Source of the DNA: Candidatus Solibacter sp.
GTDB taxonomy: Bacteria; Acidobacteriota; Terriglobia; Bryobacterales; Bryobacteraceae
Length of the DNA stretch: 64,000 nucleotides
Assembly (NCBI GenBank): GCA_025361425.1
Contig: JANYAH010000037.1
Coordinates: forward strand, 1 to 64,000
Reading direction: 5' to 3'
This document shows, in pieces, positions 36,005 through 38,377 of the stretch. Every line of letters begins with the position of its first letter. The first letter of the stretch is position 1. Under the pieces are notes generated by a model. It had not been told where the DNA came from, did not search any database, and saw only the letters and a list, made by a program, of their open reading frames with translations. The position numbers were made by a program, and so were the translations under genes.

Positions 36005-36589
36005 TTACTCCGCCAGCAGCGCCGGCGCGGGCCGCCGCCGATCCACTTCCCGCCGCAGCATGGTCAGCAGCCGCTCCATTCCGGCATCCCAATCCGGAAA
36101 TAGGTCGATGTATTGCAGCTCATGCTGGATGGTTCGCGGCACCGCGCACTCATCCAGCCGGACTGGAACGATGTAGATCTCATCCAGGGGCACCTGCCGC
36201 GCGCAATCGAGCGCGTAGCGGATTTCCGACTGGAAACCACCCTTTTTGCGCACCGACTTCCCCGAAAAACAAGCTACAAAAAAGTCTGAGCCCTCGATCG
36301 CCGCCTGAATCGCTCGCGGCCAGTTCTGCCCGGCCAGCAGTTTCCGCACGTCCATCCAGGGACTGAACCCAGCCTGGTTCAGAACTTCGTACAGCCGCCT
36401 GGCGAGCTCTTCGTCCTCCTTAGCGTAGGCGATGAAGACCTGCGGCAGTGCCCGCGGTACAAAGCGGAATCCCCGGCGTGCGTCGGGGTAGAAGATGCCT
36501 AACCCGTCGATCTCCACCGTCTTTCCCTCCGTCACCCCGCGCAGCACGATGCGTGCCACCTGTTGGCAGGAATCGCAGCATTTAGGCAC
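36005..36589 (-). CDS. TIR-domain protein with N-terminal HU-like half-domain
   Basis: Protein of 194 residues if it starts at the GTG at 36589, which overlaps the stop of the HU-like gene by 8 bp. Residues 9-46 (VARIVLRGVTEGKTVEIDGL, then GIFYPDARRGFRF) read like the helix-strand-turn half of HU/IHF. Residues 49-150 form a TIR domain: PQVFIAYAKEDEELARRLYE, the WMDVRKLLAGQNWP loop, SDFFVACFSGKS and GGFQSEIRYALD, in which Glu122 occupies the NADase position known from SARM1 and bacterial TIRs. Longer frames up to 36775 merely run opposite-phase through the HU-like gene. CC-x2-C at residues 4-8 could bind metal. It may be an NAD-cleaving effector. Confidence 0.78.
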   Translation of the reverse strand: MPKCCDSCQQVARIVLRGVTEGKTVEIDGLGIFYPDARRGFRFVPRALPQVFIAYAKEDEELARRLYEVLNQAGFSPWMDVRKLLAGQNWPRAIQAAIEGSDFFVACFSGKSVRKKGGFQSEIRYALDCARQVPLDEIYIVPVRLDECAVPRTIQHELQYIDLFPDWDAGMERLLTMLRREVDRRRPAPALLAE

Positions 36590-36791
36590 GCCGCTTGCCT
36601 CGCTCGCGCCTGAAGGCCAACCGGCCGCCGGCCCCCGGCCGAAAGCACCCCAACCCCGGAAGCCGCGTCTCTTTCCCCTGGCGCACGCCGTCGAGGATCT
36701 CCTGAACCATCCGGTCCAGCCGGTCGGCTGCCGCGCCGCGGGTTCCGCCCGTTTGGCGGGCCATCTTTTTCGCAATTTCAGGCTTCTTCAT
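36582..36791 (-). CDS. HU/IHF-like mini-protein
   Basis: Protein of 69 residues. MKKPEIAKKMARQTGGTRGA, the following helix DRLDRMVQEILDGVRQGKET and RLPGLGCFRPG match the N-terminal half of HU (two helices and the first GFGTF-like strand turn), but the long DNA-binding arms and C-terminal helix are missing; HU is about 90 residues. A similar half-domain opens the TIR protein directly downstream, and the two genes overlap by 8 bp, which argues for coupled translation and perhaps a heteromer. DNA binding is not proven without the arms. Confidence 0.68.
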   Translation of the reverse strand: MKKPEIAKKMARQTGGTRGAAADRLDRMVQEILDGVRQGKETRLPGLGCFRPGAGGRLAFRRERGKRRA

Positions 36792-37019
36792 TCCGATTTC
36801 ACTCTAGCAACCGGAAAACCGCCTAAAGCCCAAAGGCTCTGCCGTATTTAAGATAACTAGCTCTTTATCAACAATTTAGCAAATCGAAAAAAACGGGAAA
36901 CTCGTGTCACTCACACATGAAACGATTTTAATTGTGTTTTAAGCGATACTTCACGTGAGGTTAGATATCATAGCCGCAGACGACATGTTAGTTCGTCAAC
37001 CTCCAAGGAGAACTGCACA
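36792..37019. other. AT-rich divergent intergenic region
   Basis: This is the most AT-rich stretch of the window, between the HU/TIR operon and the first Lys-rich peptide gene. It holds the 45-bp conserved upstream block at 36927-36971 and is a good candidate for promoters on both strands. Confidence 0.5.
36927..36971 (+). promoter_or_regulatory. Duplicated upstream block, copy 1
   Basis: Aligned without gaps to 37349-37393. Shared parts in order: TTTAATTGT, TTAAG, AT, TTCAC, GGTT and a TATnAT -10-like end (TATCAT here). The 35-type spacing points to GCGATA, not a sigma-70 -35, so an activator or alternative sigma factor is possible. Confidence 0.6.
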
Positions 37020-37184
37020 ATGAAAAAATTGATGACGCTGATGCTCGGCATGGCTTTCGTTTTCACCATCGTAGCCCCCACCTTCGCCCAGGAAAAGAAG
37101 GAAGAGACCACGAAGAAGGAAACCACCAAGAAGAAGAGCAGCAAGAAAAAGACCGACACCACCAAGAAAGACACCAGCCGCTAA
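37020..37184 (+). CDS. Small secreted Lys/Thr-rich peptide, copy 1
   Basis: Predicted 54-residue protein, too short for most gene lists. A signal peptide MKKLMTLMLGMAFVFTIVAP ends at TFAQ, and the mature part (about 31 residues) is built almost only of Lys, Thr, Glu, Ser and Asp (KKETTKKKSSKKKTDTTKK). AAGGAG lies about 10 bases before ATG. It is clearly paralogous to the gene at 37440: the signal peptides share MKKLMTLMLG. A highly basic periplasmic or secreted peptide; function unknown. Confidence 0.78.
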   Translation: MKKLMTLMLGMAFVFTIVAPTFAQEKKEETTKKETTKKKSSKKKTDTTKKDTSR

Positions 37185-37213
37185 TCGGCTTGTCTCTGTC
37201 ACTTTGCTGGGAA

Positions 37214-37237
37214 GCCGCGTAGCTCTTGCTGCGCGGC
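37214..37237 (+). terminator. Hairpin after peptide gene 1
   Basis: A 10-bp stem with one G-U pair, 37214-37223 with 37228-37237, loop TCTT. Only a weak T stretch follows (TTTT about 12 bases later). Confidence 0.5.
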
Positions 37238-37348
37238 CATCCGGTATGTTTTGAACCTGCCCGCTTCCCCCCCCCTAATTTTCCTTCGCTTACAGTCCCG
37301 CAGCCGGAACTCTGTCCCCTGTCGCCGTTGTGCCTCAGATGAATCTAC

Positions 37349-37393
37349 TTTAATTGTCCATTAAGGAATCGTTCACATCTGGTTCGCTATGAT
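37349..37393 (+). promoter_or_regulatory. Duplicated upstream block, copy 2
   Basis: Second copy of the block at 36927-36971, ending in TATGAT at 37388-37393. It lies 46 bp before the start of the second peptide gene, close to the 48 bp of copy 1. Confidence 0.6.
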
Positions 37394-37439
37394 GTTTTCG
37401 AAGACGCCCTAAACGTCCACCAAACCAGGAGATTTTGCC

Positions 37440-37595
37440 ATGAAAAAACTGATGACTTTGATGCTCGGCCTTTCGCTTGCCCTCGGCTGCGTGGCCATTA
37501 CTTTTGCGCAGGACACCACCACCACCACCAAGAAGGAAAAGAAGGCCAAGAAGAAGACTGCCAAAAAGAAGAAGAGCGACACCACCAAGAGCTAG
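37440..37595 (+). CDS. Small secreted Lys/Thr-rich peptide, copy 2
   Basis: Predicted 51-residue protein. Signal peptide MKKLMTLMLGLSLALGCVAI with cleavage after TFAQ, then a mature part rich in Thr and Lys (DTTTTTKKEKKAKKKTAKKK). AGGAG ten bases before ATG. The paralogue at 37020 differs in the mature tail but keeps composition and charge, so charge rather than sequence seems to be under selection. Function unknown. Confidence 0.78.
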   Translation: MKKLMTLMLGLSLALGCVAITFAQDTTTTTKKEKKAKKKTAKKKKSDTTKS

Positions 37596-37613
37596 TTCTT
37601 CCATTCGAAAATC

Positions 37614-37641
37614 GCCGGATTGCGGTAACACGCAATCCGGC
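37614..37641 (+). terminator. Hairpin after peptide gene 2
   Basis: Perfect 11-bp stem, 37614-37624 with 37631-37641, loop GTAACA, 18 bases after the stop codon. No U tract follows. It also lies just before the 3' end of the converging PAP2 gene. Confidence 0.6.
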
Positions 37642-37678
37642 ACACCTCCCTCCCCCAACTCCCATGCCTGTGCAGTTT

Positions 37679-38377
37679 CTACTCTTCACTAACGTTCATT
37701 GAGTGCGCACTTCGCGCCTTTTCGAGAAATGCGTTTCTTTTCCCCCGTCCCTGCCAGATATGGTGCGCTACCCGAATCAGCGTAGTCCACACGATACCCG
37801 CCGCATATCCGGCGAGGACGTCGGTGGGATAATGCACGCCCAGGTAGACCCGGGAGAGCCCGACCGTTAGCGTAAACGCCAGCGCCGCGCTCCACATCGC
37901 CACTTTGCCCGCTAGCGGCCACTCGGCGCGAATCAGTATCTCCGCCAGGCAGAGGAAAAAACAAAAAGACACGAGGGCATGACCGCTGGGAAAACCGTAG
38001 GTGGATGGCAGCGGATAGCCAAACCAGGGCGCCGGACGAGCCCGGTGGAAGAACAGTTTCATGGCCTCGCTAAGCAGGTTGGCGCCAACCACGGCGACCG
38101 CAAACAGAGCGGCGTCCCGCCCCCTGGCCGCGCGCGCCAGCAACCCCACAATCAACAAACCGCCCGGCCACAGCCCCCATCCGCCGCCCACCAGACTGGC
38201 GCCTTGCATGACCCACGTCAGCCAGGGTTGGGCAAACGCGTGGACCGCCTCGCGCCCAGCTAGGTCGAATTCGGGAGGAACCCCGCGCGCAGCTTGCTGA
38301 GCGAGCCAGGCGAACAGGAGCACTGCGCCCGCCGCGACTGCCACGTCGCGAGCTGGGTGGAACTTGGATCGGATCAC
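37679..38377 (-). CDS. PAP2-family membrane phosphatase
   Basis: Protein of 232 residues with six membrane segments. The three phosphatase motifs are intact: KLFFHRARP (about 107-115), PSGH (about 129-132) and SRVYLGVHYPTD (about 173-184). The enzyme dephosphorylates lipid phosphates such as undecaprenyl pyrophosphate or phosphatidate at the outer face of the inner membrane. It starts at a GTG, with TACAGT about seven bases upstream as a possible -10. Confidence 0.88.
   Translation of the reverse strand: MIRSKFHPARDVAVAAGAVLLFAWLAQQAARGVPPEFDLAGREAVHAFAQPWLTWVMQGASLVGGGWGLWPGGLLIVGLLARAARGRDAALFAVAVVGANLLSEAMKLFFHRARPAPWFGYPLPSTYGFPSGHALVSFCFFLCLAEILIRAEWPLAGKVAMWSAALAFTLTVGLSRVYLGVHYPTDVLAGYAAGIVWTTLIRVAHHIWQGRGKRNAFLEKARSAHSMNVSEE

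Follow-up and report, generated by a model that had tools for sequence, protein, structure and literature searches.

Two small genes lie one after the other in the stretch of Candidatus Solibacter DNA analysed here (64,000 nucleotides, called the window), each behind a copy of the same upstream block, and the question is what these genes make and what switches them on. The open reading frames of 54 and 51 amino acids, both opening with MKKLMTLMLG, were found where the original prediction had placed them (Table 1). The 45-nt blocks before them (36927-36971 and 37349-37393) aligned without a gap, as had been described, and ended in TATCAT, 48 nt before the ATG, and in TATGAT, 46 nt before it. 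In the source genome, a 5.3-Mb draft, the window pair were the only copies of the family, and the named relatives found by peptide query were assemblies of Candidatus Solibacter, Solibacteraceae, and Bryobacterales. Leaders of the gene-1 type and of the gene-2 type both recurred across several genomes of the genus, and the twins therefore look like old paralogues.

Table 1. Features of the twin peptide genes and of the divergent operon, with positions counted from the first nucleotide of the window.
Feature	Position	Strand	Details
HU-half-domain/TIR protein	36005..36589	-	194 aa; GTG start; 8-nt overlap with HU gene
HU-like protein	36582..36791	-	69 aa; first gene of divergent operon
Operator, gene 1	36917..36954	+	ATGAA 36917-36921, TTAAT 36928-36932, TTAAG 36939-36943, TTCAC 36950-36954; period 11 bp
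-10 element, gene 1	36966..36971	+	TATCAT; 16 bp from start of last half-site; no -35 hexamer
5' hairpin, mRNA 1	36979..36997	+	GACGA ... TCGTC; at inferred 5' end
Shine-Dalgarno, gene 1	37005..37010	+	AAGGAG; read from sequence
Peptide gene 1	37020..37184	+	54 aa; signal peptide MKKLMTLMLGMAFVFTIVAPTFA; predicted mature part QEKKEETTKKETTKKKSSKKKTDTTKKDTSR, net +7
3' hairpin, gene 1	37206..37245	+	terminator-like; no long T run
Operator, gene 2	37339..37376	+	ATGAA 37339-37343, TTAAT 37350-37354, TTAAG 37361-37365, TTCAC 37372-37376
-10 element, gene 2	37388..37393	+	TATGAT; 16 bp from start of last half-site
5' hairpin, mRNA 2	37403..37417	+	GACG ... CGTC; at inferred 5' end
Shine-Dalgarno, gene 2	37427..37431	+	AGGAG; read from sequence
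Peptide gene 2	37440..37595	+	51 aa; signal peptide MKKLMTLMLGLSLALGCVAITFA; predicted mature part QDTTTTTKKEKKAKKKTAKKKKSDTTKS, net +9
3' hairpin, gene 2	37614..37641	+	GCCGGATTGCG...CGCAATCCGGC

A family match was found in 33 of the 101 genomes searched (the source genome and 100 relatives) and in 7 of the 8 other genomes of the same genus, and the carriers often had two or three copies, which stood in tandem in several genomes. Conservation of the frame in relatives was a point on which the original prediction was to be judged, and the frame proved to be conserved. Over codons 1-16, pN was 0.26 and pS was 0.59, with pN below pS in 97% of 1953 pairs, and the frame is therefore translated and selected. 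Pfam gave nothing of weight for the family members, and no match to such acidobacterial peptides appeared in the literature searched. The data showed that the family is real, specific, and coding, and that it is without description in the libraries and literature searched. One member came from another family of the class (L017, genome G100), where a short family peptide stood with HU and HU-TIR genes behind a degenerate operator; this may reflect an old association or a transfer.

The export pattern was analyzed across 62 members. Residue -1 was Ala, Gly, or Ser in all 62 and residue -3 was Ser, Thr, Ala, or Val in 57, while the mature part began with Gln at +1 in 48 and had Asp or Glu at +2 in 54. 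This pattern is of the signal peptidase I type, and secretion, as originally proposed, is predicted for nearly all members. The mean charge of the first six mature residues was -0.4 and that of the remainder was +7.7, a layout that suits Sec export. The mature part is a disordered chain of about 30 residues (range 22-60, median 28), with 38% Lys, 2.4% hydrophobic residues, and no Cys, and its net charge was +4 to +13 throughout the family. The earlier description of these chains as almost pure Lys, Thr, Ser, Glu, and Asp held for the window pair, but Ala, Gly, Pro, and Gln were also present family-wide. Genome G045 carried a second operator-linked copy (L143:2238-2735) with a long chain of 11-residue repeats (AAAEKKAAGTQ, AAAEKKAAGTK, and VAAEKKAAGTK), which recall the repeats of LEA group 3 or of Asr.

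Charge density had a standard deviation of 0.055 between members, in comparison with a mean of 0.127 and a minimum of 0.094 in 500 random redistributions of the residues, a comparison that treats related sequences as independent and ignores phylogeny. That the density varied less than in all 500 redistributions supports the proposed selection on charge. Small, cationic peptides of exported type, which several genomes carry as tandem pairs or triplets, might also be antimicrobial or signalling peptides aimed at other cells. However, so few hydrophobic residues and the lack of cysteines do not suit that role, the tails are without the conservation expected of a receptor ligand, and no recurring processing protease, transporter, or immunity gene was recognised nearby; we consider such a role very unlikely.

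The upstream regions of family genes picked by protein alone were then aligned, and they gave the consensus ATGAA-N6-TTAAT-N6-TTAAG-N6-TTCAY, that is, four elements at an exact 11-bp period, followed by TATnAT. The TATnAT lies 16 bp beyond the point where the last element begins, or one base less in some genera. Across 38 genes, identity was 93% in the half-sites and 41% in the spacers. The operator is thus longer than the 45-nt block that was first seen, and its first element, ATGAA, lies outside that block; this element was overlooked earlier because the block began in the neighbourhood of element 2. The exact 11-bp period and the hairpins at the two ends of the message had likewise gone unnoticed. 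The claim that the block is not a normal sigma-70 promoter was right as to the -35, since no TTGACA-like hexamer was found 16-18 nt from a -10 in 36500-38000, but the block does contain a -10. A perfect palindrome (ATGAA...TTCAT) was also considered and rejected: the outer arms do form an inverted repeat, whereas the TTAA elements between them miss the centre by half a base pair; the 11-bp direct period, by contrast, is exact.

Searching the 5.3-Mb genome with a 17-position core, allowing up to 3 mismatches, gave two exact sites, both in the window. The block also precedes homologous genes in many relatives and, as had been argued, is not due to chance. The sole 2-mismatch site lay inside an ECF sigma-factor gene, and further targets in this genome were rejected because sites with 2-3 mismatches were not commoner than in the reversed control (8 matches in all against 19). 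A scan of 61 genomes with a model of the block sequence, used on its own, gave strong matches, one or two per carrier genome. Among 399 genomes of the class, the model matched 47, all in the window's own bacterial family. All 24 loci taken from this class scan had a gene for a Lys-rich peptide of exported type 92-140 nt downstream; the protein search had already turned up three of these genomes, G042, G044, and G045. At L091, L092, L025, L015, L065, L066, and L097, a peptide was found after an initial lack of one, and the frame at L065 looks broken. From the locus scans together with the peptide search, it follows that operator and peptide predict each other, one to one. What is new here is this tight pairing of an operator with a polycation across one bacterial family, as read from the genome sequences. 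In genome G036, a weaker operator match (E=3e-4; L093:6555-6969, minus strand) preceded a different protein, of 117 aa, with a hydrophobic N-terminus and the ending SKKK, which is possibly a second target of the regulator.

Activators of the OmpR/PhoB family use promoters in which half-sites repeat in tandem every 11 bp and stand immediately upstream of the -10. The peptide promoters have this layout: tandem direct half-sites, the 11-bp period, a -10, and no -35. Each therefore looks like an activator-dependent promoter in which OmpR-type half-sites replace the -35. Support for this reading came from the pst genes of the same genomes, because their promoters share the layout, with GTAAC-N6-GTAAC at an 11-bp period about 15-16 bp before an AT-rich -10. 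A probable Pho box, GTAAC-N6-GTAAC or a close variant, was seen upstream of pstS in L131, L132, L134, L135, and L138. However, the half-site of the pst promoters is GTAAC, in contrast with TTAAT, TTAAG, and TTCAY in the peptide operator, and this difference rules out the peptide operator as a member of the Pho regulon.

The published PmrA box is HTTAAD-N5-HTTAAD, and elements 2-3 fit it in both window operators (TTTAAT-TGTGT-TTTAAG and TTTAAT-TGTCC-ATTAAG). The PmrA (BasR) regulon thus has tandem hexamers at the same 11-bp period, and both outputs would alter the charge of the envelope. However, the peptide operator has four elements, with ATGAA and TTCAT at its flanks, and abuts the -10, and neither LPS-modification genes nor a PmrA orthologue was identified. 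RstA and PmrA both bind tandem sites of this layout (RstA: PMC4117788), but the RstA box has neither four half-sites nor the flanking ATGAA and TTCAT of the peptide operator.

The source genome had 13 Trans_reg_C matches, and no response regulator gene was conserved beside the peptides. Profiling 11 of these 13 over 28 genomes (12 candidates scored per genome) gave no clear cognate for the operator. The orthologue of one regulator, L168, was present in 8 of 14 operator-positive genomes in comparison with 1 of 14 operator-negative genomes, which makes it a weak lead. We infer a regulator of the OmpR class from the layout of the operator.

The peptide genes diverge from an operon for HU and HU-TIR proteins, as first reported; the arrangement is recurrent, but the neighbour is not obligate. 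HU/TIR genes adjoined the peptide in 17 of the 24 operator-found loci and in many others, and in most loci the HU start was 125-141 bp from the operator. The HU-TIR protein itself came close to being a core protein of the bacterial family, with matches at E<=1e-48 in 50 of 61 genomes. HU and TIR were also considered as a single frameshifted gene; this was rejected, since both overlapping reading frames recur as a pair in relatives. Sharing of the operator with the HU gene was likewise rejected, because within the genus the HU gene has a separate promoter-like sequence close to its start, and gene 2 retains the complete operator with no HU gene beside it. Shortly before the HU start, a sequence conserved in the genus resembles a -10 (GGTTGCTAGAGTGAAATCGG, 36792-36815, minus strand), and the HU mRNA is perhaps leaderless. 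Recognised neighbours of the TIR gene included HU, the peptides, and a UvrC-like gene, among others. A TIR protein that probably binds DNA and has no recognised defence genes around it is uncommon in its own right.

This adjacency might mean that the peptide is a functional partner of the HU/HU-TIR operon, for example in a TIR-based defence or stress module, since the TIR domain is closest to those of short Argonaute systems; no Argonaute was noticed among those neighbours of the TIR gene that carry annotation. However, HU-TIR occurred without a recognisable peptide alongside in about 20 genomes, and peptide plus operator occurred without a nearby HU-TIR in G039, G011, G016, G026, G029, G060, G063, and others. 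Gene 2, moreover, has a separate operator away from HU, and vertical synteny suffices as an explanation. We read the adjacency as conserved synteny, which needs no functional link, although one may exist, and we give the partnership itself only a small chance. The neighbouring HU-like genes, together with the 11-bp phasing of the TTAA-containing elements, might also point to a different role for the block, as bent DNA or as an element for a nucleoid protein such as these HU-like ones. However, each element is conserved base by base at a fixed distance of 16 bp to the -10, pst promoters share the layout, and the block exists where HU-TIR is absent, so that a structural element of this kind seems quite improbable.

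Potential RNA structures at both ends of the transcripts were also investigated. In 45 of 60 leaders the best 5' stem started at +6 to +10, where 12 were expected and at most 20 were found in 100 shuffled sets, and the mean stem score was 13.1 in comparison with 8.5 (sd 0.5) in shuffled leaders. The 5' hairpin also covaries, and the arms GACGA/TCGTC, GGCGAT/GTCGCC, GTAGTCC/GGGCTAC, GAAGTTAT/ATAGCTTC, and TGACGGC/GCCGTCA still pair across genera. At the 3' end, a hairpin followed the stop codon in 59 of 61 genes (mean -26.8 kcal/mol, against -13.5 kcal/mol in shuffles). For gene 1 the best 42-nt fold was about -28.8 kcal/mol against a shuffle mean of -11.8 kcal/mol, and for gene 2 the values were -23.5 and -7.7 kcal/mol. 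Messenger RNAs of the ompA type carry stabilising stem-loops at their 5' ends. The peptide mRNA likewise has a stem-loop at, or a few nucleotides from, its inferred 5' end, but it is very short, and the stem-loop may stabilise it. The message is short, one-gene, and probably stable.

Conserved hairpins at both ends of the transcript might suggest that the RNA, as a small or dual-function RNA, is the main product and the peptide secondary. However, no Rfam 15 family matched at E<=1, which rules out a family known to that library, and the coding selection in the signal peptide, the strong Shine-Dalgarno, and the constancy of charge all speak for the peptide; an RNA as the main product is highly improbable.

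Asr of E. coli is a disordered periplasmic chaperone that is important for outer-membrane integrity and is induced about 1000-fold at pH 4.4 (PMC10746267), and asr is activated via an RstA box under acid (PMC11135836; PMC4117788). Like Asr (NF033636), the family peptides have a signal peptide followed by a disordered, basic, Lys-rich mature part of low hydrophobicity that is predicted to be exported. Each also has a separate promoter whose tandem half-sites are of the kind that OmpR-family regulators use (RstA and PhoB in the case of Asr), and the longest members, such as that of G045 with KKAAAEKKAAGT repeats, are similar to Asr in make-up. However, the mature part of the family is shorter (about 30 aa) and rich in Thr, Glu, and Asp, the Asr repeats are absent from most members, and the operator has other half-sites, four instead of two. 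The family was also confined to one acidobacterial family in these scans, with one exception. Against the Asr model, 5 of 24 members matched weakly at E<=0.01 (best 1.7e-4) and none was seen above the curated NCBIfam cut-off of 50 bits; window peptide 2 scored 13.5 bits and peptide 1 was not listed. The parallel with Asr is one of anatomy, not of membership. The signal peptide region also resembles that of Spy (NF007769), and 18 of 24 members matched the Spy model at E<=0.01 because of it, but the match was limited to the N-terminal stretch of the model, the peptides have no Spy domain, and window peptide 2 scored 29.7 bits against a cut-off of 174.

On the reading that we prefer, each gene would form a transcription unit of its own that depends on an activator and yields a small exported polycation. 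The hairpin at or beside the mRNA start should shield the 5' end and, combined with the strong ribosome site and the strong 3' hairpin, would make output high once the regulator is active. The product would be exported by Sec and cleaved after a small-x-small motif such as TFA, and the released peptide would be unstructured, about 30 residues long, with a net charge of about +7. Such an abundant, disordered polycation could bind anionic envelope surfaces or client proteins and so shield the envelope when acid or a related stress acts on it. By analogy with Asr, the peptides would thus be highly expressed, envelope-protecting polycations that act as Asr does and stand outside the Asr family, possibly with acid as the inducing signal; we put the probability of this reading at roughly 0.45.

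A positive charge this constant, on chains that lack a conserved sequence and contain hardly any hydrophobic residues, would also fit purely electrostatic binding outside the cell, and the export pattern agrees with it. The peptides might then serve as a matrix or surface glue, a polycation that cross-links anionic exopolysaccharide, extracellular DNA, or soil particles in response to a surface or nutrient cue. However, among the recognised recurring neighbours there were no genes for exopolysaccharide or adhesins, and the chain is short for a cross-linker, although some members are longer (G045, L143). We regard a glue as unlikely, yet worth keeping in view.

Envelope protection remains the reading that we favour, and the peptides are probably a stress-driven coating or protection of the cell envelope. 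Taken at the level of the regulon, the data tentatively suggest a dedicated system in which one to three secreted polycations are essentially the sole target per genome. This would be an undescribed acidobacterial system of envelope charge, with an operator stricter than its peptide, analogous to, but independent of, the enterobacterial Asr and PmrA systems.

Acidobacteria dominate many soils, and few of their stress regulons are known. The near-absolute conservation of the half-sites predicted a tiny exported polycation at 24 of 24 loci, one that protein-family libraries miss, and the operator offers a route to such peptides where sequence search fails. The two-component system that drives the operator is open to direct testing, as is the idea that selection on a bacterial envelope protein may act on charge alone, without conserved sequence.
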